20,810 nucleotides of DNA from a virus: the IMG/VR virus record IMGVR_UViG_3300010885_001765, positions 1 to 20,810 of that record, one strand, 5' to 3'. Within the stretch, counting starts at the first letter, position 1. Each line of letters opens with the position of its first letter. Below, piece by piece: positions 1 through 15,775 of the stretch. Below the pieces are notes generated by a model. The model ran no database searches. It was not told the origin of the DNA and was given only the letters and a program-made list of their open reading frames with translations. A program made the translations under genes and the position numbers.

Positions 1-637
1 GAACTTCTCCAGCATTTTGCGCAGCTTTACCGCCCGCCCTACCCAACAAAGGACGCATAAACGGAAAGGCTTTGGCAACGCCAGAGAAGATTTTACCACC
101 AGCTAGATCAAGTGCGGTCTGTCCGGTAGCTGCCAAGATCGCTTTACCGACCGAAGTATCCTCTGGTTTCGCACCTGCCGCTATGGCCGCTTCCTGCTCC
201 TGCGCCTGACGCAAGAGGTTCTGGGATGTGTATTGAGTACCTGAAACTGCGCCCGCCGCAACGAGACCACCGATAGGAGAAGTAAACGGCGTAGCCGCTA
301 GACCCGCAGCAATAGGAGCAGCCATCTGACCAAGCGACCCACCTACCAACTCCTTAAAGGCTTCCCAGTTATCGCCCTCACCAAAACCCACCTGCCGGTA
401 CTTAGACTCACCAGCCTTGATTAGCGCGCGACGGTTCTTCTTACTGGGATCCGCAGCAAACACAGCCGCTTCGTCAGCAAGGCCAGAAGTCTGGGCACCC
501 TCCATCAAGGACCCAAAAAAGCCAGCAGCTTCCTTCTGAGGCCGAAGCCTTTCCGGAAGCTTGTCTAGCGGGACAGCTTTACCCCCTAAGGATCGTAGAC
601 CCTCCGGAAGTTTGTTCAGGGGGACAGGAGTAGGCAT
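1..637 (-). CDS. N-terminal part of a large phage virion protein (runs off left edge)
   Basis: I read this frame directly: ATG at 637-635, then an open frame of 212 codons reaching position 1 without a stop, so the C-terminus lies outside the window. It begins three bases after the stop of the 812-residue gene. No strong Shine-Dalgarno is visible, which fits translational coupling. The first 32 residues hold a 17-residue-period duplication: VPLNKLPEGLR (about 5-15) and VPLDKLPERLR (about 22-32). A Gly/Ala-rich hydrophobic stretch follows around residues 97-135 and could contact membranes. No catalytic motif is visible in this fragment. Its place at the end of an ejection-like gene block suggests the first part of a large internal virion or polyvalent protein, analogous in position to T7 gp16. 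That role is inference; the open frame itself is clear. Confidence 0.75.
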   Translation of the reverse strand, partial: MPTPVPLNKLPEGLRSLGGKAVPLDKLPERLRPQKEAAGFFGSLMEGAQTSGLADEAAVFAADPSKKNRRALIKAGESKYRQVGFGEGDNWEAFKELVGGSLGQMAAPIAAGLAATPFTSPIGGLVAAGAVSGTQYTSQNLLRQAQEQEAAIAAGAKPEDTSVGKAILAATGQTALDLAGGKIFSGVAKAFPFMRPLLGRAGGKAAQNAGEV

Positions 638-640
638 GGG

Positions 641-3079
641 TTATGGATACATCCATTGTCCGTTGGAGAACACTATTGTTTTACCGTCGCTATCTTTAGC
701 TCTAGCCCCCTCGGCTGTGCCACCACTACCACCGCCATGACGGCCTGTTTTTATGTCTTCAAGGCGCTGCGCTGCATCCTCCCCCGACCCGCTTGGTGGG
801 TGGTGTAGCGCGATCCATTCTTTCGCCGCAGCCTGCATCGCAGGGTCTCCGCTCCTGAACATGGCGAAGACCGCCGTATCTACGTCTATACCCTTGCTCT
901 TAGCTGCTGCGATAGTTGCGTTAAGTTCATCACGCCTAAGTTTGAGGGTAGCATTAGCCTGACGTACGTCTTCGTTAAATTTACGATCTTCATTAGCAAG
1001 ATTCGCTGCATTAGTAGCTTGGGTTAGCGTAGCACTAGCGAGCTCATTCCGTTCCTTGTTGTTGAGCCCTTCCAACTGGGCAGCATCCATGATTGATGCG
1101 CGGGCTTCCTTCTTCAGGTCTCTCAGGTCAGCCTTCATACCAGCAACTGCGGGCGCACCAGCTTCACCGATTGCCCCGAGGAAGTTCGGGTTCTTCGAAG
1201 CCATAAGCGCAAGGCCAAAGTTCATCAGCGCCATGTTAGCAGCCTGCTTGCGTTCGGTCCTGTTATTCGCAAGGTCTTCACGGGTATTCGCCATTAGCAT
1301 GTCGCTAAACTCACGGGATTGAGGCCCACGAAGTTCTTCAAGGGTAGCCTTCGACTTAGCTAAGCTCTCTCGGCTAAACGGGTTATTAACTGGCCCAGCA
1401 ACAGCATAACCCGGCACGGTACCGCCATCAGCAAAGAGGCTAGGCATACCCGCACCCTGTGGCGACATCATAGCGAGACCCTGCTGTGCAAGGGCCGCCC
1501 AGCCAGCTTGTTTACGATCCCGCTTATCCGCTGCACGGTCTTTCATCAGCTCCGCAATATCCGCTGCGCGGTCTTCGTTACGTTGCGCGGTCTCCGCTCG
1601 CATCATGTCATACACAGCCCGCGTTTCTTCGCTCGTCCCCGTTTTCACGGCAGAAGCAAGCCCTGCGGAAGCATCGGGAGCGGCGCGGGAAGTACCCCGG
1701 CGAGCAATCTTGCTAGGTTCAAGGTGCACATGGTCGTAGTGCCCTTTAGTGTTGAATATGGTATCAACCTGCGGGCCAAAGTGTTTCCTGAGACTGCTCC
1801 CAAACTCTGTGAGCGACATACCCTTGGGGGGTTTCAGGTCTAGTGCGTTGTTAGTTAGATGGTAGCTATTAGGTACACCACCTACTTCTCTGTTTCTAGC
1901 AGCGGTCCGTCCACGCCCAGCGATAATAGCATCTGGATATAGAGCCCTAACCTGCTCTTCGAAATAAGGTCCAAGCGGGCCTTCAGGAAGAACTTCATCC
2001 CCAGCAGCAAACGCAACCATACCGCCATCAGCATACTGCTGCATATCGCTGTCACCTACGGACGAATTAAACATATCGTCGGGCACGGGGAGTGAGGCTA
2101 CGCCGCCATCGGCAAACCCAGCTTCTTCAGGAAGACCAGCCTCGGGGAACGGCAGGAGCGACTGCAGGTCTAGCGGGCGAGACTCGCCGCCCTGAGCAAA
2201 AGCCACCATACCGCCGTCAGCTAATTTGCGGGTGTACTCAATTTTAACAGAGCGGCCGTTCCGGTCGTACCGCCCGCCGATTTTTGCGTCACCGCCAAGC
2301 AAACGGTGGGAGTAGCCAGCATTATAAGAATCAGGTCGCACTCCACGCGAAGCATGGGCACCAGCACTAAAGTTACCCCCAGCTACCGGGACATCTACTC
2401 CATAGTTCGAAGTGTTCCTTATTGGGTCATATTGCCCACGAATGTTAGCGTCACCCACTCGCCGATCAACATTCATAAATTGATGGACGAGATCAAGTAG
2501 ATTGTTATGACGTTCTTCGCGCATCGGTGGAAGACGATACTTATTAACTACGTCTGAGCGTTCCGGTATGCTTTCTGTAGGCCCGTAGCTCGATGGACCG
2601 CCGCTACGAAACGCAACCATACCACCATCAGCCATACCCGGACCCATAGGCTGCATAGCTTCCGGTGACGGGGGAGGCATCGGCATATCAGGCGGAGGAG
2701 CACCCATACCCATATCAGGCGGAGGTGCGCCCATACCCATACCCATATCAGGCGGAGGTGCGCCCATACCCATACCCATATCAGGCGGAGGTGGACCCAT
2801 ACCCATAGGAGGAGCGCCGGGGCCTACGCCACCAGGAGCTTGGGCTGGAGGCGTCTGCGGGTTAAAGACTTGCGCAGCTACGGTACTCTGTGGAGCCTGA
2901 CCCTGAGCAGCACCCGCCGCCATGCGGTCGATAAACATACCAGCAAGCGTACCGATAGTAGGGTCCACGATGCCAAGCTGCATAGCCTCAGCAATCTTCT
3001 GCTTGTTACCGCCGTAGTCTTTGGCAATCTGTTCGGGAGACTGAATACCAAAGGGCTTGCTGGAGGGTGTTGATGCCAT
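641..3079 (-). CDS. Large virion-associated protein with M15A-type peptidase domain and ADGG motifs
   Basis: This 812-residue modular protein probably helps the virion open peptidoglycan during DNA entry. Residues about 96-134 are a Pro/Met repeat (PPPDMGMGMGA). Residues about 205-286 are a Gly-rich segment with alternating polarity that looks like beta-hairpins. Residues about 364-455 resemble peptidase M15A (D-Ala-D-Ala carboxypeptidase/endopeptidase fold): NSYHLTNNALDL gives H407 and D414 seven apart, and GHYDHVHLEP supplies H450/H452, matching the family's HxxxxxxD...H zinc site. The C-terminal third (about 480-760) is helical, charged and Ala-rich. The motif [FLMY]ADGG occurs five times (about 150, 287, 323, 350, 550), separating the modules. 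The Shine-Dalgarno AAGGG starts inside the TAA stop of the preceding gene. The peptidase call is fairly sure; the entry role is inferred from its neighbours. Confidence 0.85.
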   Translation of the reverse strand: MASTPSSKPFGIQSPEQIAKDYGGNKQKIAEAMQLGIVDPTIGTLAGMFIDRMAAGAAQGQAPQSTVAAQVFNPQTPPAQAPGGVGPGAPPMGMGPPPPDMGMGMGAPPPDMGMGMGAPPPDMGMGAPPPDMPMPPPSPEAMQPMGPGMADGGMVAFRSGGPSSYGPTESIPERSDVVNKYRLPPMREERHNNLLDLVHQFMNVDRRVGDANIRGQYDPIRNTSNYGVDVPVAGGNFSAGAHASRGVRPDSYNAGYSHRLLGGDAKIGGRYDRNGRSVKIEYTRKLADGGMVAFAQGGESRPLDLQSLLPFPEAGLPEEAGFADGGVASLPVPDDMFNSSVGDSDMQQYADGGMVAFAAGDEVLPEGPLGPYFEEQVRALYPDAIIAGRGRTAARNREVGGVPNSYHLTNNALDLKPPKGMSLTEFGSSLRKHFGPQVDTIFNTKGHYDHVHLEPSKIARRGTSRAAPDASAGLASAVKTGTSEETRAVYDMMRAETAQRNEDRAADIAELMKDRAADKRDRKQAGWAALAQQGLAMMSPQGAGMPSLFADGGTVPGYAVAGPVNNPFSRESLAKSKATLEELRGPQSREFSDMLMANTREDLANNRTERKQAANMALMNFGLALMASKNPNFLGAIGEAGAPAVAGMKADLRDLKKEARASIMDAAQLEGLNNKERNELASATLTQATNAANLANEDRKFNEDVRQANATLKLRRDELNATIAAAKSKGIDVDTAVFAMFRSGDPAMQAAAKEWIALHHPPSGSGEDAAQRLEDIKTGRHGGGSGGTAEGARAKDSDGKTIVFSNGQWMYP
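2678..2794 (-). repeat. 33-bp tandem coding repeat (Pro/Met repeat)
   Basis: On the plus strand a 33-base unit containing cccatatcaggcggagg recurs, followed by shortened copies of about 27 bases. It encodes PPPDMGMGMGA-type units within the 812-residue virion protein. The near-identity at DNA level suggests recent slippage or duplication. It is in frame, so copy number can change without breaking the gene. Confidence 0.85.
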
Positions 3080-3091
3080 AATATCTTACCC

Positions 3092-4591
3092 TTACGGTTT
3101 AGCCATGTTGTAAGCGCTAAGCGCTGTGAGGCCAGTACCCATAAGCTGCGCACCAAGCGACGGCCCCGGAGCAGATATTGTCTGGGTCTGGTTAGGTCCC
3201 ATAGGAACACCCTGAAGCAAGCTACTATACAGCTTCATCTGTTCCGCCGGGTAGTTCAGCTCTCGTAGGTAGTCTTGGTACGACGTATCCAAATACTGCT
3301 GTTTAAGGGCCTGTTCCTGTGCTGCTACACTTTGCTGCTGTTGATTTAGTGCCTGTTGAGCCTGCTGCTGGGCACTACCAAGATTACCAAGTGTCTGAGC
3401 CGACTGGTTAGCCTGAGCCAAGCCTGCCAGCCCCTGCTGCGAACCAAACTGGCGGGACTGCTCCGCCAACCGCTGGGCTTCGAGGTTTGTCTGCTGGTTA
3501 GCAAGGAGCGCCTGCATACCTGTTTGGGTACCAAGCTGCTGGGTACTGAGCGCAGCGTTGAGGTTCTGCTGGCCGACATTGAAGCTCATCTGCTGGTTAG
3601 CTAGTGCAGCACGAAGTGCGTTCTCGGCATTCATTCCCTGAGATTGAAAATCTAGGGCTTGGTTATTAACCCGCGCCTGCTGCTCGTTAGTAAGATTGGC
3701 AAGTGCAGTCTGAAGACCGGTCTGTGTACCTAGATTTTGGACACCAAGATTAGCCTGTAGGTTCTGCTGTCCTGCCTGCTGCTGAAGCCCTTGCTCCGCG
3801 TTGAACTGCTGCTGGGCATTCTGAAACGCCTGCTGCTGCCCCTGCGCTTGGATACTACCAAGTTGCGTGCCGAGGTTACGCTCACGCTCAGTGCCTGCAA
3901 GAAGCTGACGAGCCCCGCCGTAAGTGCCTTGCCTAACAGCCCCAAGGTTTGCTGATAGTTGTCCTTGCTGCGCGTCCCGGATAGCCTGCTGCTTTTGAAC
4001 ATCAACGACATTCTGCATGTAAGGCGACATGAACTGTTGAGCTTGCGTAGAGCCAAAGCTCCCCGGACCTTGCATCTGGTAGTAATTAAGGTTTGGGTTG
4101 TAGTCCGTCTGGGCCGCTTGCATATTTTGTGCTTGGACCCGCTGAGCCTGCACATCACGCGGCTGCTGCATAGAGTATTGCTGCAGGTTTGGTTGGCCAA
4201 TCTGCTGCGAAGAAAACTGGTTAGGGTTATACTGACCAGCACTAAGTGCGCCAAGTCCTGCCTTCGAAGCTAGACTAGCACCCTCTTGAAACTGACCCGG
4301 CATCTGCTGGCCAAGGATATTTTTCTGTAGCGTCACCTGCTCAGGTGTGAAGCCTTGAATGCGCTGGCCAGAGGTAGCCCAGTCGTACGGGGCTGGTGCG
4401 GCGGCATAAGTGTACTTACCATCGGCACCTAAAGTTGCAGTTTGGCCGTATACTGGAGGCGGCTTTGTTATATCAGTAACGGCCTGAGCCGAGTTCATAA
4501 GGCCCATATAATACGGCTGTGCATACGCCGGGATGTTTGACGTAGTTTGATTTACCGTTGAGGTTGTATTTTTAGCTCCGCCGCCGCCCAT
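3092..4591 (-). CDS. Gln-rich helical virion/ejection protein with hendecad repeats
   Basis: This 499-residue protein has a small Gly-rich start (MGGGGAK), a PAYAQPYY segment near residue 21, and the motif FMSPYMQNVVDVQKQQAIRD at about 187-206. GTYGGARQ follows at about 222-229. From memory, similar FM(N/S)PY...GA(F/Y)GGxRQ segments recur in phage injection or internal proteins of uncertain function. Residues about 240-430 are extremely Gln/Ala/Leu-rich with an 11-residue periodicity and a 66-residue internal duplication (GQQNLQANLG at 274, GQQNLNAALS at 340). These indicate a long right-handed coiled coil or membrane-lying helix. The C-terminal LMGTGLTALSAYNMAKP is mildly hydrophobic. It starts two bases after the upstream stop, preceded by AGGGG. 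I infer a DNA-ejection role; the sequence shows no enzymatic motif. Confidence 0.82.
   Translation of the reverse strand: MGGGGAKNTTSTVNQTTSNIPAYAQPYYMGLMNSAQAVTDITKPPPVYGQTATLGADGKYTYAAAPAPYDWATSGQRIQGFTPEQVTLQKNILGQQMPGQFQEGASLASKAGLGALSAGQYNPNQFSSQQIGQPNLQQYSMQQPRDVQAQRVQAQNMQAAQTDYNPNLNYYQMQGPGSFGSTQAQQFMSPYMQNVVDVQKQQAIRDAQQGQLSANLGAVRQGTYGGARQLLAGTERERNLGTQLGSIQAQGQQQAFQNAQQQFNAEQGLQQQAGQQNLQANLGVQNLGTQTGLQTALANLTNEQQARVNNQALDFQSQGMNAENALRAALANQQMSFNVGQQNLNAALSTQQLGTQTGMQALLANQQTNLEAQRLAEQSRQFGSQQGLAGLAQANQSAQTLGNLGSAQQQAQQALNQQQQSVAAQEQALKQQYLDTSYQDYLRELNYPAEQMKLYSSLLQGVPMGPNQTQTISAPGPSLGAQLMGTGLTALSAYNMAKP
3377..3772 (-). repeat. 66-residue tandem protein repeat (6 x 11 residues)
   Basis: Two successive units of the Gln-rich protein align with an offset of 66 residues: GQQNLQANLG...LGTQTGLQ at 274-294 and GQQNLNAALS...LGTQTGMQ at 340-360. 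Within them the chain breaks into 11-residue segments such as NLGTQTGLQTA and LANLTNEQQAR. This is a protein-level repeat; DNA identity is only partial. Confidence 0.7.
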
Positions 4592-4592
4592 G

Positions 4593-5024
4593 TTAAGCCC
4601 CTAATCCTGAACTAGCTACCGGCAACTCGTACGTCTGCCACAGCGCTTTATAGCCATCGCTCTTGAAAATCTTAGCCCAACCAACTCTACCGGAAGACTC
4701 AATACGATCACATTCGTTGTCGTAAGCCCAGTGCTGAAGCATCTCTAACATAGGAGCTTTCCATTCCATACCTTCATCGCCAGCACAGAATACCATGTCG
4801 AGGCATTTAATACGAGGATACTGTTTGAAACTAGTTATTGTAATGCCTTTGATATCTTCGCCCTCAAAAGCGAGCCATAGGTTGTGGTCGTACTGAGTAA
4901 TAGCCTCAAGAACATCTTCAGGGTCGTATCGGCCATAAGTATATTCAGCAACTCTATCTACATACGATGCAAGTCTCGGCCATACTTCTACAACATGTTC
5001 AGTGGGAATGAGTGACACTTGCAT
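4593..5024 (-). CDS. GNAT-fold protein resembling T7 internal virion protein gp13
   Basis: This small protein (143 residues from ATG) has the layout of a GNAT acetyltransferase fold: a helical N-terminus (EHVVEVWPRLASYVDRV), a central strand pair NLWLAFEGEDIKGITIT, and a C-terminal GRVGWAKIFKSDGYKALWQ, like the last strand-helix-strand of GNATs. T7 gp13 and related marine-phage proteins share this pattern; T7 gp13 is associated with the internal core. The acetyl-CoA loop is not obviously intact, so catalysis is doubtful. The stop TGA of the upstream 522-residue gene overlaps this ATG as TGATG, indicating termination-reinitiation. A GTG one codon earlier (5027) is an alternative start. I am fairly confident of the fold and less so of the gp13 equivalence. 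Confidence 0.72.
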   Translation of the reverse strand: MQVSLIPTEHVVEVWPRLASYVDRVAEYTYGRYDPEDVLEAITQYDHNLWLAFEGEDIKGITITSFKQYPRIKCLDMVFCAGDEGMEWKAPMLEMLQHWAYDNECDRIESSGRVGWAKIFKSDGYKALWQTYELPVASSGLGA

Positions 5025-6592
5025 CACGCAACACCCCGGCGAAGCCCTGTATCTTGCCCGCGCTTAGCATTCTTACGTGCCGTTTGAGCTTTGTTCATTA
5101 GTGCGTAGAGCTTCTGGGTACCACGCGAGTGGCTGCCCTTGCCGAGCCGCTGCACGGCTCCGGGGCTGAACTGTACCTCATCACGAGCCACACGAGCCTG
5201 CTGCGTACCACCGATATTAGCCCTAACAGAGTCGCTAACGCCATCACCCGGACCACGAATAGCCATACCACCCAGACGCGCAAGGAGGTCCTGTCCAGCA
5301 CCGCTGCTACCGTTACCAAGCTCTGAGACTGTGCGAGCATCAACTACGAATGAGCCATGCTTAAGGGGCACTTCGCCGCCCCGTGCCAGACCCGGAAGGT
5401 TACTGATTTGCCCAAGCCCGTTGGGATTATTACCCTGCTGCGGCTGACCGTAAGAAGACTGCTGCATATAAGGAGAGGGCTGCTGGTCCTGCTGTGTAAA
5501 CTGCGGCGAAGGTTGGGGCATCATCTGCGACTGCTGTTCAGACATCTGCGACGGGAAAGTAAATGTCGAGTCACCGACCTGACCGCCATCAGCGTAGCCC
5601 GGCGGAGCTCCGTACTGCTGCAGCATAGCAAGCTGCTCGGGCGTGAGGTTAAGGAGGTTAGGGTTGTTAGTACCGGACTGCGGGAGACCAAAGGGGTTAA
5701 CAGGGTTTGCCGAGAACGAGCTAGCATTAGCTGCTGTAGGCGTCGTCTTCTGCCCTGGAGTATATATATTACCAGCAGCATTGCGGAGCGTTGCCCCACC
5801 AAAGAAGCGCTGCGTACCATAAGCCTTAGTCGGGTCAAACTCTGCAGGCCGAGCACCGGGCGCTAAAGGCGTAGCTGCTAACTCTTCGCGTTGCATAGTA
5901 TAAGGCCCAGTGTAGCCGTACTCGTCCACAGGCTCTTTGGGCTTTTTGGGTGTGGGAGTGAACGCATTGAGAGCTTGAGTAGAACCCGTAATGGCAAGCG
6001 GGACAGCGGCTTTAGCCGCAAGACCAGTCAATTCCCCCCTAGCGGCATTACCAAACCCCTGCATGAAACCGGAGAGTCCAGTCTTAAGTACAGGAGCGGC
6101 AGCCGCAGAGGTCCCCTGGGCCGCCAGAGGAGCAAAAGCTTCTGTAAACGTGGCCCCCGAAGCTACGGGGGGGAGAGCGGCAGGAACCGCAGCTTTTGCT
6201 GCACCACTAATAGCACCATGAACACCACCAGCCAGCGAAGCGCCGCCATAAGCACCGAGACCTGCCATGAGACCTTTTTTGAGGCTACCCGTAACAGCAG
6301 TCGCGCCAACGCCAGTCATAAGGCCAGCCTGCACCGCAGTGCTGATTCCTTTAATAGCCAAGCCAAGACCGGGGATGGCAAAGCTAAGCCCAACACCGAT
6401 AAGTGTAGGCAGAAGCTTACCAAGCCAGCCAGCTTCAGGCAGACCTGTGTCCGGGTTGATCGTAAGTGAGCCGCCGTGCGCCATAGCAAGAGCCTGCAGA
6501 CCACCGACCTCGTGAGGGGTCATGTGGACCAGCATCGTATCGTCACCGCGTCCCTTGGACCGAACGTGCTCTGCCATGTGCGAATAGGGCAT
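5024..6592 (-). CDS. Probable internal/ejection protein with Gly-zipper segments and duplicated C-terminal domain
   Basis: This 522-residue protein opens with a conserved-looking block (GRGDDTMLVHMTPHEVGGLQ around 14-33, then HGGSLTINPDTGLPEAG), which from memory recurs in aquatic phage virion proteins. Residues about 60-210 are a long Gly/Ala-rich hydrophobic region with Gly-zipper spacing, suited to inserting in a membrane. Residues about 290-395 are Gln/Pro/Ser-rich linker, including one YADGGQV motif (about 333). The C-terminus carries GPGDGVSDS (about 447-455), a variant of the GPGxGxSDSIPA motif seen in many phage structural proteins. It also has two copies of a ~35-residue unit (413-440 and 471-499). 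The tail end is basic. The ATG at 6592 has only a weak Shine-Dalgarno. The function in DNA ejection is inferred from composition and neighbours. Confidence 0.8.
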   Translation of the reverse strand: MPYSHMAEHVRSKGRGDDTMLVHMTPHEVGGLQALAMAHGGSLTINPDTGLPEAGWLGKLLPTLIGVGLSFAIPGLGLAIKGISTAVQAGLMTGVGATAVTGSLKKGLMAGLGAYGGASLAGGVHGAISGAAKAAVPAALPPVASGATFTEAFAPLAAQGTSAAAAPVLKTGLSGFMQGFGNAARGELTGLAAKAAVPLAITGSTQALNAFTPTPKKPKEPVDEYGYTGPYTMQREELAATPLAPGARPAEFDPTKAYGTQRFFGGATLRNAAGNIYTPGQKTTPTAANASSFSANPVNPFGLPQSGTNNPNLLNLTPEQLAMLQQYGAPPGYADGGQVGDSTFTFPSQMSEQQSQMMPQPSPQFTQQDQQPSPYMQQSSYGQPQQGNNPNGLGQISNLPGLARGGEVPLKHGSFVVDARTVSELGNGSSGAGQDLLARLGGMAIRGPGDGVSDSVRANIGGTQQARVARDEVQFSPGAVQRLGKGSHSRGTQKLYALMNKAQTARKNAKRGQDTGLRRGVA

Positions 6593-6633: not shown

Positions 6634-6936
6634 TTAGACAGAAGTCACGGTCTGCCACGCAGAACCGCTATACACACAGAGCTTGCTTAGCGTAGTATCA
6701 AAAACAACCCAGCCTGCAGCGGGGGTAAGGGCGTTCTTCTCGGTGGTAGTTACGTTCTTGGTAGCTAGGATACCGTTAAACGTGTCCGCAGTATACTTCT
6801 GCGCATGGTTGGGTGTGTTAGAATCCAACTGCGAAAAATAAATTTCAATTACCCGCAGCACCTGCCGCATATACTGCGCATCCCACAGACTTGGTGGGTT
6901 AGGGAACGGAGGTGCGTTGAACTTATCGAGGGCCAT
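6634..6936 (-). CDS. Small phage structural/tail protein
   Basis: This is a 100-residue protein. The N-terminal half (LDKFNAPPFPNPPSLWDAQYM) looks helical and Pro/aromatic-rich. The C-terminal half (GWVVFDTTLSKLCVYSGSAW) resembles the common short beta-motif GxxVFDTTxxKLxxYxGxAW, found at the ends of phage tail and fibre proteins. Its start overlaps the stop of the gp10-like gene as TGATG, so the two are translationally coupled. This suggests a partner in the tail hub or fibre attachment. No enzyme motif is present. After its stop, 41 bases precede the next gene, the longest gap in the window, and I see only weakly purine-rich sequence there. Confidence 0.75.
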   Translation of the reverse strand: MALDKFNAPPFPNPPSLWDAQYMRQVLRVIEIYFSQLDSNTPNHAQKYTADTFNGILATKNVTTTEKNALTPAAGWVVFDTTLSKLCVYSGSAWQTVTSV

Positions 6937-8867
6937 CAGCGTGTACCGTCAACCCTAGCGTCAAGCCTTGGGTTTCCTAGCTGCCATTGAGCACCTAGCG
7001 TATCTGAGGTAATCTTAAAAGCCATCTGGCGCGCACGAGTACGAAGGAAGACTTGCCCGGTATATACGTCAACCGAAGTCTGTATCACTTTTGCTGTGTC
7101 ATCCGTATTAGTGTTGAATGCGCTGCCTGGAAAGTTGCGGCTCCTAATTTCAAGCGTAACTTCGGGCGATACGGCAGTGGACCCCGAGAAGTCGATATCA
7201 GGGATAATGCGCCGGGTCAGCATGAAGCGCTCACCGTCATCGAGATCAAAGTCGCTCGACTGGATGTAGGCTTCTAAGATTGCCCCGTCGGCGTCAATGC
7301 CGTCCTCGTGGTTATAAAGGTAACCAGCTGTGTAACCTTCTGCGGTATCGGCGGCCTGCGGGAATTGGCGTAGGGGGCTATCAAGCCACGCAGTGCGTTC
7401 TATTGAGCCGTAGTACCAGACCTTATCGACGTGGTTGTATACGACGTAGGCGTTGTTCCAGCTAGAGTCCGCAGTAGGGTAAAACCACCACACTTCATTC
7501 CACTGCTCGTTGGTCCCACAGACTATCTGATCGGACTGGCTATAGTTAATATTGTTGAACACATGGAGAGTTAAGGTAGAATCCAGCGTCTCGACGCGAC
7601 CAGTATATGCGTAGAACTTATCCTGCCCCATCCAGTAAGTGACGTTGCCAGCGCTAGCTATAGCCCGTGACGAAGCAATCGAGATATTGTCCGCATACTC
7701 CTGAAGCCCAAACACATCGGTCGTGCCAAGGAACTGTAGCGCATAAAGGTTGCTATCACTCCAAACCAAGATTTCCTGCCGGGTGGGGAGCGCCCGGATA
7801 ATACGTGAGCCACGAGAAACGCGCAGGAAACCAGCACTATTAGTAACAGTTGGCCCCCACTCACCGGGGCTATCCTGTGATGCCCAACGGATAAGCAGAG
7901 GGTCAAAATCAGCCGTGCTTGTACTACCATAAGGCACAGCTCCAAAAGCCAATAGGTGCTTATCCTGCTGTGACACCAGAAGCTGCATGACTTTAGAAGG
8001 TACATCGTTGGCGCTGAAGCTTTGGCTTGTAGCATATGCCTGTAGCGTAATAGCCCGAGTACCCAGTGCAGTAACTGGGCTAGTGGTAGTCCCACGTTCC
8101 CAATAGTAAGGCGCACCGTTGCGGATGTTAGCTACAAGGTCATTATCGAAGTTATCAACCCACCAGTCTTGCTGCGGAAAGACGATTGGGGAAGTAGAGT
8201 TAGACCCCCACGTACCGCGACCCCATGCGCCTGTACCCCAACCGTAACCCAAGGTTGCGCTGGCGTAGCCAGTATTTATTTCAAAACTTACTGTAATCCC
8301 CGTACCGCCGCCACCAGACACAGTGGATGTAGCGTTAGTAGAGGTTTGGAATGTGAATGAGTTAGCCGGTGTACCTGCAGTAGCAATGAGCTGCGAGGCG
8401 TTAAGTTCAGCGGCGGGGATACCACCCACTGCTGCAGCACCAGATATGTCGGCGTAGTTACCCGCAACGGCTGAGGGATCAACGGCAAGCGTCATCCTTA
8501 CGATGCTTGATCCATTGGTGGTATAGATTGAGTTATTGGTATTGGCACCAGTGTAAGTAGGCGTAGTGGCTCGCAACGGGGTAATGTCAGCATAGTCGCC
8601 AGCAGCACCGTTCTGGATATAGAGTTTAAGGTTCGTACCTAAAGCTAGGAAGTCATCGCTAAACGTGGTGATCCACCCCCACATCTGACGACAAGTGCCA
8701 AGGAACGTAGCGCCGCCAGCAGGACCTGCCTTAGTCCAACCGCCAATCTTTGCTGGGTATCCGGAGTTAAACCTGATCTTGTCGCACGCATACCAACCAC
8801 CCTCGCCCGAGTAGTCTGTCTGGTCACGGTTAACGCCCGGTCGGAACTGAAGCTTGATAAATGGCAT
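6936..8867 (-). CDS. P22 gp10-like packaged-DNA stabilisation / tail hub protein
   Basis: This 643-residue protein begins MPFIKLQFRPGVNRDQTDYS followed by GGWYACDKIRFNSGYPAKIGGW, the usual start of proteins related to P22 gp10. In P22, gp10 attaches below the adaptor gp4 and helps plug the portal after packaging. The body is rich in beta and Trp motifs consistent with propeller-like blades, for example GYGWGTGAWGRGTWG around residue 206-220 and EQWNEVWWFYP further on. It is longer than P22 gp10 (about 470 residues). A Gly/Ser/Thr-rich stretch before the WGW motif (about 140-200) may account for part of the difference. The Shine-Dalgarno TAGGGA starts inside the upstream TAG stop. The next gene is coupled through TGATG. 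Family assignment is strong. Confidence 0.9.
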   Translation of the reverse strand: MPFIKLQFRPGVNRDQTDYSGEGGWYACDKIRFNSGYPAKIGGWTKAGPAGGATFLGTCRQMWGWITTFSDDFLALGTNLKLYIQNGAAGDYADITPLRATTPTYTGANTNNSIYTTNGSSIVRMTLAVDPSAVAGNYADISGAAAVGGIPAAELNASQLIATAGTPANSFTFQTSTNATSTVSGGGGTGITVSFEINTGYASATLGYGWGTGAWGRGTWGSNSTSPIVFPQQDWWVDNFDNDLVANIRNGAPYYWERGTTTSPVTALGTRAITLQAYATSQSFSANDVPSKVMQLLVSQQDKHLLAFGAVPYGSTSTADFDPLLIRWASQDSPGEWGPTVTNSAGFLRVSRGSRIIRALPTRQEILVWSDSNLYALQFLGTTDVFGLQEYADNISIASSRAIASAGNVTYWMGQDKFYAYTGRVETLDSTLTLHVFNNINYSQSDQIVCGTNEQWNEVWWFYPTADSSWNNAYVVYNHVDKVWYYGSIERTAWLDSPLRQFPQAADTAEGYTAGYLYNHEDGIDADGAILEAYIQSSDFDLDDGERFMLTRRIIPDIDFSGSTAVSPEVTLEIRSRNFPGSAFNTNTDDTAKVIQTSVDVYTGQVFLRTRARQMAFKITSDTLGAQWQLGNPRLDARVDGTR

Positions 8868-11281: not shown

Positions 11282-11437
11282 TTACCCTATAGCCTTACGG
11301 ACAGCGCCCAAACCAGCGGCAGCCAACAGTGGCCAGACGTACTCTGGAATAGGATATCCAAGGGCCGTAGCTGCTGCGCCAATAGCGGCAAGCGCCGCAA
11401 CGATGTAGGTCTTCTTACCTTCAAGCTTAGCTAACAT
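11282..11437 (-). CDS. Short holin-like membrane protein
   Basis: I translated this 51-residue gene directly. It starts MLAKLEGKKTYIVAALAAIG and continues AAATALGYPIPEYVWPLL, then AAAGLGAVRKAIG. It has a charged N-terminus, one long Ala-rich hydrophobic helix (about 12-27), a Pro-containing turn and a second short hydrophobic segment (about 35-45). It lies between the amidase and the spanins, the usual place for a holin or for a membrane protein assisting the endolysin. AAGGAG at 11450-11445 lies seven bases before ATG 11437. Another ATG at 11443 is only one base from it and is less likely, though dual starts as in holin/antiholin pairs cannot be excluded. The gene overlaps the 3' end of the amidase gene by 11 bases. 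Confidence 0.75.
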   Translation of the reverse strand: MLAKLEGKKTYIVAALAAIGAAATALGYPIPEYVWPLLAAAGLGAVRKAIG

Positions 11438-11861
11438 ATTCATTCTCCTTCAACCACGCCGCCACATCAAAAGACGGGCAGGCTTTGTTAACACCCGGCC
11501 AGTCGCGATGACCACGAACGGTGATGCCGGGGTATCGTGCTTTATACGTTCGGATTAACGTTAAAAGCGACTTCTTTTGCTCAGTAGTGCGCGTATCTTT
11601 TGGCGCGTGCATCCTAGCATCCATACCACCGATATAGCATATACCAATATTCCCAGTGTTACGCCGCCCTACATGAGCACCTTTCTGGTCGTCCTTCAGT
11701 GTTTGGTGATGGCTGCCGTCAAGCTCGATAACCCAGTGATAGCTGGTCTGGCCAAATTTAGCCTTATCCCACTCTGTGATCTGCTCAGTGGTGACGTGGC
11801 GTCCTTCTGGCGTTGCCGCGCAGTGAACGGTAAGAAACTTTACTGGGCCAAGCCGTGCCAT
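11427..11861 (-). CDS. Endolysin: N-acetylmuramoyl-L-alanine amidase (T7 lysozyme-type, Amidase_2)
   Basis: This 144-residue enzyme should cut the amide bond between N-acetylmuramic acid and L-alanine in peptidoglycan. T7 gp3.5 landmarks are present: LTVHCAAT with zinc ligand H13, SYHWVIELDG with Y41, GAHVGRRNTGNIGICYIGG, and RGHRDWPGVNKACPSFD with H118, K126 and C128. These correspond to T7 H17, Y46, H122, K128 and C130. The domain fills the whole protein, as in T7, with no signal peptide, so export would depend on a holin. Such a protein follows directly. Residues 80-92 (MDARMHAPKDTRT) match the T7 loop region. The Shine-Dalgarno AAGGA begins within the preceding TAA stop. In T7 this protein also inhibits RNA polymerase; nothing here shows that. 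Confidence 0.95.
   Translation of the reverse strand: MARLGPVKFLTVHCAATPEGRHVTTEQITEWDKAKFGQTSYHWVIELDGSHHQTLKDDQKGAHVGRRNTGNIGICYIGGMDARMHAPKDTRTTEQKKSLLTLIRTYKARYPGITVRGHRDWPGVNKACPSFDVAAWLKENEYVS
11445..11450 (-). promoter_or_regulatory. Shine-Dalgarno within the endolysin gene, serving the holin-like gene
   Basis: AAGGAG on the minus strand lies within the last codons of the amidase. It is seven bases from ATG 11437 and one base from ATG 11443, so it favours the shorter 51-residue product. Confidence 0.75.
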
Positions 11862-11873
11862 TATATCGCGTCC

Positions 11874-12119
11874 TTATACGTTTACGCTGGTTCCTTGCAG
11901 GCCGATAATAGCAGTAGATGTGTCGCGGTCCAAGCGCAGTGTGCCCTCGCAGACCATGCTGTAGTCTGAGCCAGTTTGTGCGCCTTGGCACGGCACGTTG
12001 ATCTGCACGTGCTTGACAAGATATTCCTTGCCGTCCTCGAACACGCGCCAGACGTGGTCCATAGTGCCGCGCCCTGGCTGCCCGCGCGTTTGATTGTAGC
12101 GCACCTGAAAGGAAGCCAC
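11874..12119 (-). CDS. Small conserved-looking protein of unknown function
   Basis: This 81-residue protein starts at GTG. The choice is supported by GGAGGTGATC at 12131-12122, an unusually complete match to the anti-Shine-Dalgarno, seven bases away from GGAGG. The GTG overlaps the upstream TAG stop as TAGTG. The sequence is beta-rich: DHVWRVFEDGKEYLVKHVQI reads like hairpins, then NVPCQGAQTGSDYSMVCEG with two cysteines (about 44 and 57), then RLDRDTSTAIIGLQG. I do not recognise a named family. It sits between the 2OG oxygenase and the endolysin, and the strong ribosome-binding site suggests high expression. Confidence 0.72.
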   Translation of the reverse strand: MASFQVRYNQTRGQPGRGTMDHVWRVFEDGKEYLVKHVQINVPCQGAQTGSDYSMVCEGTLRLDRDTSTAIIGLQGTSVNV

Positions 12120-12745
12120 TAGATCACCTCCGCCGCTGCGACGGGGCTATACTCGACGTTGATGTTGAAGTGGACGAACTTGATCGGCTTGTCAGAGCCG
12201 TGCCGCGTGAAGCCGTGCGGCAGCCACGCATTGGCAAAAATCATCGTGCCGGGTTTAGCCTCAAAGCCAATAGTGTTGCTGGCTGGCGTTATCTCGCCCA
12301 TGTTGGCCTCTGGCAGGTTGATCTGCACCTTACCCGGACGCGGGTCGTAGAACAGAGCTTTAGAGCAGTTTTCCGGCGTCTCAAGGAAGTAGAAGCCAGT
12401 GAGCTGCGCCCCGTTGCCGTGGACGTGCTGCTCCATAGCCGAGTGCTTGTAGTGCTCCTGCGTCCACATCTCCGTAAAGAAGGTTTCGGCGTTCTCGACA
12501 TCGCTGCCCTGATTACGCAGTATCTCCCACGCGGTTCTGCCGACAAACGTGCAGAAGTCCATCAAGCGCGGGTCTTGTGAGAAGTCGCCCGACATCTTTG
12601 CTGGGTAAAGCTCGTGCAGGTCATCTGGCTGCTGCGCTAAATGCTCCTCTGATACCGCATTGACGACATCGAGAAACTCTGGCTTGAACAGGGTGACGAC
12701 CGTACTAAGAAAACAATATACTGGCTGTAAAGCGTCCGTATCCAT
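12119..12745 (-). CDS. 2-oxoglutarate/Fe(II)-dependent oxygenase (2OG-FeII_Oxy_5-like)
   Basis: This 208-residue enzyme starts at ATG 12745, chosen because AGGAG lies six bases upstream; the frame also allows a TTG start at 12778 with poor support. The C-terminal half shows the family layout: MEQHVHGNGAQLTGFYFLET (residues about 104-123), ALFYDPRPGKVQINLPEANMG, GTMIFANAWLPHGFTRHG and FVHFNINVEY. H107/H109 and H177 are candidate iron ligands. The position usually held by arginine for 2-oxoglutarate in RISISFN-type ends reads KFVHFN here. Phage members, common in cyanophages, are annotated as prolyl hydroxylase-like, but their substrates are unknown. Its place between tail and lysis genes suggests action on a virion or host protein late in infection; that is inference. 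Confidence 0.85.
   Translation of the reverse strand: MDTDALQPVYCFLSTVVTLFKPEFLDVVNAVSEEHLAQQPDDLHELYPAKMSGDFSQDPRLMDFCTFVGRTAWEILRNQGSDVENAETFFTEMWTQEHYKHSAMEQHVHGNGAQLTGFYFLETPENCSKALFYDPRPGKVQINLPEANMGEITPASNTIGFEAKPGTMIFANAWLPHGFTRHGSDKPIKFVHFNINVEYSPVAAAEVI
12122..12131 (-). promoter_or_regulatory. Full-length Shine-Dalgarno (GGAGGTGATC)
   Basis: Minus-strand GGAGGTGATC is the exact complement of the conserved 16S rRNA 3' end GATCACCTCC. It also encodes the last residues (EVI) of the upstream oxygenase. It decides the GTG start at 12119. Confidence 0.85.
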
Positions 12746-12779
12746 GATTTGCTCCTGCGAGAGCTTGCGCAGTACCAAG

Positions 12780-13751: not shown

Positions 13752-14603
13752 TTACATGTTTACGCCGGTTGTGCCGTTAGATGCGGCAGAGCCCCTAGCA
13801 GATACTACTGTAGCCGCTCCGCCAGCGGCGTTTGTATTCCCGGAATATGTGTATTTGTTGCGTGTGGTGGATATACCACCAGATATGGACCCAAGCGCAA
13901 AAATACCTACGGCGCAATTACCTGCGGCTGACTGCAAATATCCCGCAACAGTAGAGGCAGTTGCTGATGTAACTACGTTGCTCGAGTATGTAAATTTGTC
14001 CCTATTAGATACTATTCCAGTAGTACATACAAAGCCCAACGCAAATACACCAAAAGTGCTATCACCTACTGCGGCTCCCCCATATGAAGGTTGAGAAGCA
14101 GCCGTGGTACTTGCATTAGTATCGCCAGAATAAGTATATTTATTACGAGTAGTTGTTCCGCAAACACCACCAGTGCAACCTATTGAAAATATACCAAAAG
14201 TGCCGCTGCTCGCGGCTGAACCCCAAGTCGATGCCGCAGTAGATGCAGTACCCGCTGCCACCACACAACCTGAGTATGTGTACTTGTTGCGGGTTGTAGA
14301 ACCGCACCCCAATGCAAATATACCTACAGTACTATTGCCAGTGGCTGAAGCAGAAACATCTGCCGCTGTAGCCGCGCCGCCCGCACTTACTACGCAACCT
14401 GAGTAAGTGTACTTGTTACGCGCTCTACAACCACCTGAACCCAACGCAAATATACCCACCGCGCAGGTGCCTGCGGCTGATCCTGCGTATGACGCAGTAG
14501 TAGCTGCTGTAGCTGAACCAACTACGCAACCTGAGTAAGTGTATTTGTTACGAGTGGTAGTGCCTACGCCCCCGGTTATAAACCCAAGAGCAAATATCCC
14601 AAA
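13752..14603 (-). repeat. Six diverged ~130-145 bp coding repeats plus a truncated copy
   Basis: The units are recognisable in DNA as well as protein. On the plus strand, variants of cctgagtaagtgtatttgtt and of acaaatatacc recur roughly every 130-145 bases, with the Ala/Thr-coding loops varying between copies. In-frame repeats of this kind can recombine and change the number of blades. The last unit breaks off at the stop codon. Confidence 0.75.
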
Positions 14604-14660
14604 CGTGCCCGGTTGCGGCGCGCCGCTCACACCCAACAATCCAGCAAAGATACCGGACAT
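13752..14660 (-). CDS. Kelch-like repeat tail protein (six GIFALG...RNKYTYS repeats)
   Basis: This gene encodes 302 residues from ATG 14660, which overlaps the upstream stop as TAATG; a longer frame from TTG 14690 has no support. After MSGIFAGLLGVSGAPQPGT the chain is six repeats of 43-48 residues. Each has G(I/V)FALG, a short Gly-rich loop, TTRNKYTYSG, then a variable Ala/Thr/Ser stretch ending GSAAGN. GIFALG begins at about 21, 69, 113, 156 (GIFSIG), 204 and 252. YTYS begins at 40, 85, 127, 175, 223 (FTYS) and 270. A seventh unit is cut short at GSAASNGTTGVNM. The pattern resembles Kelch-type beta-propeller blades found in aquatic phage tail proteins. Ten cysteines lie mainly in loops. A receptor-binding role is likely. 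Confidence 0.8.
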   Translation of the reverse strand: MSGIFAGLLGVSGAPQPGTFGIFALGFITGGVGTTTRNKYTYSGCVVGSATAATTASYAGSAAGTCAVGIFALGSGGCRARNKYTYSGCVVSAGGAATAADVSASATGNSTVGIFALGCGSTTRNKYTYSGCVVAAGTASTAASTWGSAASSGTFGIFSIGCTGGVCGTTTRNKYTYSGDTNASTTAASQPSYGGAAVGDSTFGVFALGFVCTTGIVSNRDKFTYSSNVVTSATASTVAGYLQSAAGNCAVGIFALGSISGGISTTRNKYTYSGNTNAAGGAATVVSARGSAASNGTTGVNM

Positions 14661-15775
14661 TAAGTTACACCCGCGCCGGAGATGACCCAAGTAGTAGACG
14701 CCACCTTAACTACTGTAGCCAGACCGCGCTGCGCCAGCGTGCGCGATCCTGTGGTAGCCGTACCGCCAAGATACATGGTGTCAGTCGTAATGCTGATCGT
14801 CTGATTGCTGGCGCTGTTGTTGTAAATGATAACCGTCGAGCCGACCGGAAATGCCACAGTACCGTTAGCGGGGATTACGACACCGCCGGTAGTGGTGTTA
14901 ACCATCTTGCCCATGTCGGTCAGCGCCAACGTGTAGGATGCTGTTTGGCTGTTTTGGGGTAAACCCTTGTAACCAACGGCGTCTACTAAAGCTACTGAGG
15001 TGATACCGCCGCCCGTCAATATGCGTAGCTGCTCAACCTGCGAGCCGGTCTTGAATATGATGGCGTCAGACGTGCCCGCGCCCGAAGTACTTTGCACCGT
15101 CAACGTGGACGAAACTGCTGTGCCGCCGATTACCAAGGGTACTGTTTCGGATGTTGTACCTGTAGCAGTGGTGTAGCTTACCGTATTGGCTGTAGTAGCG
15201 CCCACCGTGCCGTTAATGTTGATCGACGCAGTGCCGGTCAGGTTAGTGACGGTGCCGCTAGACGGGGTTCCCAGAGCACCGTTAAAGGTTACAAACGCGC
15301 CTGCGCTGCCCACGTTAACGCCGAGAGCCGTGACTACCCCGGTGCCGGTTGTTGTGGTCGCAGGGGCCGCACCCGCGCCGCCTCCAAGGACGATTGCACT
15401 AGCAGTCAGCGCAGCACTGGAAGATATAACGGTAGATGACGAATAGTAAGGCACGCCCCCCGATGTACCCTCAGATTGCACTGCCCGTTCAGCCGGATAT
15501 GTAACAAACGCATTCGATGTACCAGCCAGGACGATTGCCGTGTTAGAGTTGCTTGATGACAGGATCGTAGTACGCGCCAGCGTAGTTCCCGACGAAGCAT
15601 ATGTGCCGATCCCGACTTCCCAATTAGTACCGCTGGTCAGCGTGTAGAATGTCGTGTTGCCGTTGCCGATGGTCGCAAACGTCTGGTAGCCAGATACAGC
15701 ACCAGCAAGAGTTACCGTGCCAGTCCCAGTAGTAGTGGTTGTTTCCTGTACGCGATCAGCAAGGACAAGAGCCAT
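14660..15775 (-). CDS. Phage tail fibre protein with conserved N- and C-terminal modules
   Basis: This is a 371-residue protein. Its start, MALVLADRVQETTTTTGTGT, continues through VTLAGAVSGYQTFATIGNGN to WEVGIGTYASSGTTLARTTI. It is a widespread phage fibre N-terminal module (residues 1-75), thought to anchor the fibre to the tail. The middle is Gly/Thr/Ser-rich beta repeat sequence (ALGTPSSGTVTNLTGTASIN). The C-terminal ~95 residues (QTASYTLALTDMGKMVNTTT...FPVGSTVIIYNNSASN...ATVVKVASTTWVISGAGVT) are a well-recurring distal phage domain ending in SGxGVT. It is coupled at both ends: TAATG with the preceding 157-residue gene and TAATG with the following Kelch-like gene. The fibre assignment is strong; the receptor is unknown. 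Confidence 0.88.
   Translation of the reverse strand: MALVLADRVQETTTTTGTGTVTLAGAVSGYQTFATIGNGNTTFYTLTSGTNWEVGIGTYASSGTTLARTTILSSSNSNTAIVLAGTSNAFVTYPAERAVQSEGTSGGVPYYSSSTVISSSAALTASAIVLGGGAGAAPATTTTGTGVVTALGVNVGSAGAFVTFNGALGTPSSGTVTNLTGTASININGTVGATTANTVSYTTATGTTSETVPLVIGGTAVSSTLTVQSTSGAGTSDAIIFKTGSQVEQLRILTGGGITSVALVDAVGYKGLPQNSQTASYTLALTDMGKMVNTTTGGVVIPANGTVAFPVGSTVIIYNNSASNQTISITTDTMYLGGTATTGSRTLAQRGLATVVKVASTTWVISGAGVT

Follow-up and report, generated by a model that had tools for sequence, protein, structure and literature searches.

In phage T7, gp13, gp14, gp15 and gp16 are encoded by four consecutive genes that follow the tail genes, with a small protein first, the largest last, and a peptidoglycan hydrolase included, the SLT domain found at the gp16 amino terminus. 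Phage P22 codes gp14, gp7, gp20 and gp16 in the same order near its stabilization protein. No M15 domain is known from the P22 gp20 slot. Even among accepted podoviruses, gp15-like proteins are recognized from size and synteny and not from sequence, and the hydrolase can shift between gp16 and gp15 homologues (PMC8954989). The protein in the gp15 slot of K1E/K1-5, gp35, carries a lysozyme (PMC8954989). The Schitoviridae (N4/DEV) ejectosome is an operon of three proteins, the largest of which also serves as an effector, the virion RNA polymerase (vRNAP); the N4 enzyme is a precedent for giant effectors in the final ejection slot (PMC12633501). Mass spectrometry of virions of the Bcep22-like phage JC1 detected the LPD38 protein gp69 together with gp67 and gp68 (PMC9144972).

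The DNA analysed here (the window) is the complete IMG/VR record IMGVR_UViG_3300010885_001765, of 20,810 bp, from an uncultured virus. Its first 6592 positions very probably carry an internal virion protein operon, a DNA ejection module of podovirus type belonging to an uncultured podovirus. Genes D, C, B and A are arranged as T7 genes 13 to 16, with the differences that the hydrolase is an M15 domain in the second-last protein B, that an extra Gly-zipper protein, E, precedes them, and that A is larger in the relatives of the window. The order and the position near a P22-type stabilization protein are also those of P22, with no convincing sequence match. In phiM5 (LUZ24-like), the homologue of C is phiM5_27, followed by a protein annotated 'internal virion protein/exolysin'; phiM5 differs by the lack of a GNAT protein in the D position and by the S74 domain of phiM5_27, and no Pfam hydrolase was found in phiM5_28. 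JC1 resembles the window in its gene types (a RimL-like GNAT gene, mid-size virion proteins and a giant last protein with LPD38), whereas its LT domain lies inside the 4,515-aa last protein alongside DarB-type helicase and methylase regions. The module shares with the Schitoviridae operon a largest member with a putative added function; no RNA polymerase was seen in the window module, and the Schitoviridae ejectosome has no M15. As in K1E/K1-5, the wall hydrolase of the window occupies the gp15 slot, being there a lysozyme and here an M15 peptidase.

Organization and conservation of the module

The main genes of the window are on the minus strand and no tRNA was found across its 20,810 bp. The module codes, in transcription order, E (5024..6592, 522 aa), D (4593..5027, 144 aa), C (3092..4591, 499 aa), B (641..3079, 812 aa) and A (2..637), of which the amino terminal 212 aa are present because the record end cuts the gene. 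A preliminary description of this block, made from the DNA sequence, had placed five ORFs at these coordinates and in this order, as confirmed here, all of them on the minus strand. Its 'further large protein' is indeed last; the large size is known from relatives. Immediately upstream lies gene G (6936..8867, minus strand), coding the stabilization protein (phrog_3287, E 5e-51), whose relatives carry the annotation stabilization protein or, alternatively, needle head protein. G is separated from E by gene F (6634..6936, minus strand), which codes a 100-aa protein with a tail fibre-like carboxyl terminus and weak matches to tail fibre PHROGs and DUF2793. Two SU10-type adaptor proteins are also encoded upstream of the module.

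Relatives were gathered by three scans of viral contigs followed by gene calling. More than 100 loci show all or part of a common order, in which the stabilization protein and then a small protein precede E, (D), C, B and A; D is within brackets as it is optional, being absent from L008, L012 and L086. A gene of the size of D is found immediately before C in 105 contigs. In L093, L037 and L050 a dissimilar protein of ~155 aa replaces the GNAT protein in this slot. A possible fusion of C and B was observed in L015, L032, L035, L065 and other loci, where a C homologue of ~950–1,140 aa is directly followed by the giant protein. Among cultured phages, the C profile matched Synechococcus phage MinM2, DSL-LC04, Caulobacter phage GB2A, Pelagibacter phage HTVC027P, Roseobacter phage CRP-902 and Sinorhizobium phage phiM5, and the E profile matched the neighbouring gene in four of them (MinM2_22, the DSL-LC04 'tape measure', GB2A_65 and HTVC027P_82). 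The module had been described as built from unrelated parts; this does not hold, because the parts are the conserved proteins of the family itself with a single exchanged domain.

The predicted wall-cutting domain of B

The hydrolase-bearing protein B, in the second-last slot, combines an amino terminus domain kept in relatives with a predicted peptidase domain of the M15 type (1694..1999, minus strand; residues 361-462). The latter had been recognized in the preliminary description and is supported by Pfam, which identifies residues 375-453 (core 1721-1957) as Peptidase_M15_3 (PF08291; E 2e-7, 31.5 bits versus a cut-off of 23.2; E 3.5e-10 in the genome search). The H-x6-D and D-H-x-H metal/active-site motifs are present in all three M15-bearing B proteins (window, L002 and L008); they can be aligned with the corresponding motifs in 1LBU, a muramoyl-pentapeptide carboxypeptidase, at an E value of 0.5 that therefore supports the motif only. 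The predicted enzyme may be a carboxypeptidase or an endopeptidase, which sequence does not separate. The correspondence previously drawn with T7 gp16 is unsupported because the wall cutter of this family sits in the second-last protein, in the gp15 slot. A hydrolase in that slot is not new, since K1E gp35 has one there.

What is newly seen here is that the wall-cutting chemistry is swapped at one site in B. The B proteins of the window and of L003, its closest relative, share 63% identity over 161 residues of their amino terminus domain and 57% over the 65 residues that precede the enzyme; after this shared stretch the window protein has M15 and the L003 protein has an SLT transglycosylase. 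The tree of C joins window and L003 as sisters (100/97) and groups the second M15 locus (L085/L008) with three SLT loci (97/99), a distribution for which supported branches force two changes of M15. As this tree includes two M15 loci, the shuffle control is uninformative for M15, and the exchange is read from the supported branches. Hydrolases of B homologues were classed by regular expressions and then by HMMs built here and partly trained on the same sequences, which gave 40 SLT matches in B proteins, a count that takes in fragments and near-identical loci, and none in C or A. Among 57 B proteins Pfam, which is the independent check on these classes, found 14 with SLT, 3 with M15_3 and 1 with GH108, none being seen with both SLT and M15. 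A search for SLT over 31 records found it in 8, always in an open frame of the size of B. In most B homologues no hydrolase was detected.

The junction motif YADGGMVAFAAG (2006..2032, minus strand) lies directly before the M15 domain, with similar copies at 2195-2221, 2606-2632 and 1406-1432. At the protein level the strict pattern YA-x-GG-x-VAF is found in 46 of 63 B proteins, and a looser form in 65 of 90 E proteins, far more than in shuffled sequence. The enzyme domains of B proteins mostly begin within 9 residues past the motif, with the exception of the divergent SLT loci L078, L048 and L030 where it is 75–129 residues upstream of the domain. In the window, YADGGxVAF-like motifs were observed at B residues 150-161, 287-297, 350-358 and 550 and at E residues 334 and 403, and none in D or A. 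The motif may be a linker, a processing site or an assembly signal. The DNA of the window has three copies of the motif-encoding 27-nt repeat with 89–100% identity and a fourth of 70%; a role of these repeats in driving the hydrolase exchange is offered as a suggestion. Tentatively, B could be a scaffold with a plug-in site where the motif marks the position at which chemically different wall cutters (M15, SLT, rarely others, or none) are swapped among closely related phages; the near-identical repeats might mediate the swap, which would let the entry enzyme follow the wall chemistry of the host. If so, the cutter of a podovirus ejectosome would be a replaceable cartridge in a conserved protein, cleaving glycan in one phage and peptide in its sister, and would make it possible to test why a virion needs its hydrolase.

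Other features of B were observed. Residues ~478-635 (1175-1648) show an apparent internal duplication in the alignment with L002, the stretch RKQA..AL..GLA.MS occurring twice, and tandem 33-nt/27-nt repeats at 2675-2834 encode PPPDMGMGMGA. The 129-aa insert between two motif copies (residues 162-290; 2210-2596) has no match in the phage collection; one PDB sequence match, to Par6 (E 0.009), was judged to be due to chance.

Proteins E, C and A

The Gly-zipper character attributed to E, the first protein of the module, is retained with modest support: there are 14 GxxxG-type triplets versus 8.3 in shuffled sequences, 98 of 2000 shuffles reaching as many, and one hydrophobic segment (residues 60-78). 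The same simple hydropathy method found one segment in a relative of A and none in C; T7 gp14 likewise gives none.

C had been described as a Gln-rich hendecad helical protein. Its Gln content (20.6%) bears this out and its structure model shows long helices, at a confidence (pLDDT 61, pTM 0.27) that is low and too poor for fold comparison; the hendecad pattern is weak. Within residues 265-400, periodicity exceeds shuffles at lag 22 (p 0.02) and not at lag 11 (p 0.25). Pooled over 59 C homologues, lags 11, 15, 18 and 22 are highest and lag 7 is low, and C has an internal repeat of 66 residues (6x11) with 18 of 30 positions identical. The direct comparison of window C with phrog_4287 'DNA ejection protein' gives a weak, partial match (E 0.0018). 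The C family profile matches phiM5_27 (7e-14), GB2A_64, DSL-LC04 (DSL_2), HTVC027P (HTVC027P_83), CRP-902 and MinM2, the first four being members of phrog_4287. PhiM5_27, a clear member (6.5e-91), is annotated as 'detected in phage particle proteome' among the virion-detected phiM5_27 to 31, as are the products of genes 28, 29 and 31, which are named internal virion proteins. C is thus, as judged from profile similarity, a homologue of a virion-detected phiM5 protein.

The available part of A, in the IVPD/gp16 slot, shares 74% identity, over 202 aa, with the amino terminus of a 1,423-aa protein in L086/G001. This nearest relative carries LPD38, a domain confined to phage-type polyvalent proteins that were proposed to be delivered with DNA (Iyer et al., PMC5512222). 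Complete A proteins of relatives measure 1,403 to 2,803 aa, and sizes of A in the related contigs span about 1,400–2,900 aa overall; LPD38 is found in 9 and LPD39 in 8 of 20 A members, and some match the 'DarB-like antirestriction' phrog_10089. An HExxH-type motif is present in many A proteins, and none was found in the translated A of L086. The carboxyl terminal 874 aa of an A relative (L204, 1700-4321) gave matches to giant proteins of 127 phage records, the majority from Vibrio and others from Burkholderia and Escherichia, with ~25% identity over most of the length.

D and the ejection reading of the module

D is predicted to have a GNAT fold without the usual acetyl-CoA motif, and its gene has a gp13/IVPA-like position. 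Its AlphaFold model (pLDDT 94, pTM 0.85) was compared with 999 PDB chains, 914 of them at Z of at least 8, and acetyltransferases are nearly all of the 50 matches listed. The preliminary description had named D a gp13-like GNAT, which stands as to the fold. Kinship with T7 gp13 beyond the fold was not borne out: D was assigned to neither phrog_308 nor PF11090 in Pfam and PHROG scans, and profile comparison (hhalign probability 0.3%, column-shuffled controls scoring alike) argues against homology, in a test that is insensitive as it also missed the link to the annotated GNAT of CRP-902. T7 gp13, which has no close PDB relative, is not among the 50 BFVD fold matches listed for D, an absence that carries no weight. 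Place, size and fold suggest that D is the IVPA counterpart; P22 gene 14 was called a homologue of IVPA and, more distantly, of T7 IVPA (PMC10386132). In the virion proteome text of a T7-like phage gp14-16 are named as detected and gp13 is unnamed (PMC4517105), and the RimL-like gp63 of JC1 is outside the list of virion proteins (PMC9144972). By analogy with these proteins, D may therefore well lie outside the ejected machinery, and a role in assembly is likelier for it than an enzymatic one. An active host-modifying acetyltransferase found in the operon by chance would agree with the clear GNAT fold and with the matches of some D-slot relatives to Pfam acetyltransferases and of the CRP-902 one to phrog_1249 'acetyltransferase', but is unlikely: the acetyl-CoA loop Q/RxxGxG/A is missing in 25 of 26 close homologues (the pattern occurs anywhere in the sequence of one), where an invariant Trp occupies its place, and the position before C is kept, like those of T7 gp13 and P22 gp14. 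T7 gp13 keeps a RLSGKA stretch and P22 gp14 has no such motif.

Two further readings concern the module as a whole. B and C might be parts of a tail or tape-measure type, with M15 as a tail-tip lysin, considering that the E relatives in DSL-LC04 and GB2A are annotated 'tail tape measure' and that phiM5_27 is annotated 'putative tailspike' and has its S74 domain at the carboxyl terminus. This is quite improbable given the two SU10-type adaptors and the P22-type stabilization protein of the window, the phrog_4287 score of phiM5_27 and a gene order matching podoviral internal virion operons. The module might instead be a T7-type ejectosome in the strict sense, derived from the T7 proteins. This would account for order and sizes, but C, B, D and E have no profile similarity to T7 proteins and the hydrolase is in another protein, so that descent is highly improbable. 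Homology of C, B and E to T7/P22 ejection proteins was rejected after profile searches without match; the profile comparisons of C, B, D and E with T7 core and P22 ejection proteins gave no convincing match, the C and B profiles matched no T7 protein, and window B, C and E and the A members are not listed under phrog_805, phrog_1339 or phrog_342 (T7 gp14, gp15 and gp16). The A profile has a weak, possibly compositional match to P22 gp7 (E 7e-4, 13 bits). The missing sequence match to T7 and P22 is not decisive because gp15-like assignments rest on size and synteny.

The reading as an ejection module is favoured by clustered genes that follow the tail genes and code a gp14-like, a gp15-like and then the largest, gp16-like protein, and by a wall hydrolase in virion gene context while an Amidase_2 endolysin is encoded elsewhere, at 11427-11861. 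A place of these proteins in the virion would follow from an indirect analogy with phiM5_27 to 31 and JC1 gp67-69. The T7-like module of the preliminary description is therefore upheld in part, by the C homologue of a virion-detected protein, the D-C-B-A order and the hydrolase of B amid virion genes, and not in its gp16 equivalence, its unrelated parts or a gp13 kinship of D beyond the fold. The module probably works like the T7 ejectosome, which does not imply descent from it. E, C, B and A, perhaps with D, would be packed in the head and leave through the short tail ahead of the DNA to form a conduit across the envelope. E, with its Gly-zipper, would be the likeliest membrane-inserting part and C, with its long Gln-rich helices, the likeliest tunnel part. 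The M15 zinc peptidase of B would open peptidoglycan where the phage enters, by cutting a peptide cross-link or stem, in parallel to the action of the T7 gp16 transglycosylase on glycan strands. The last and largest protein, A, would be delivered into the cytoplasm and could bring polyvalent (host takeover/anti-defence) functions, as proposed for LPD38 proteins. Genes now called hypothetical in many uncultured phage contigs gain with this a putative functional reading.

Elsewhere in the window, the ORF at 12119-12778 resembles 2OG-Fe(II) oxygenases, the same kind of protein being annotated in the matching region of DSL-LC04, and the 312-aa product of the ORF at 13752-14690 is built of ~42-aa repeats with GIFALG...TRNKYTYSG.
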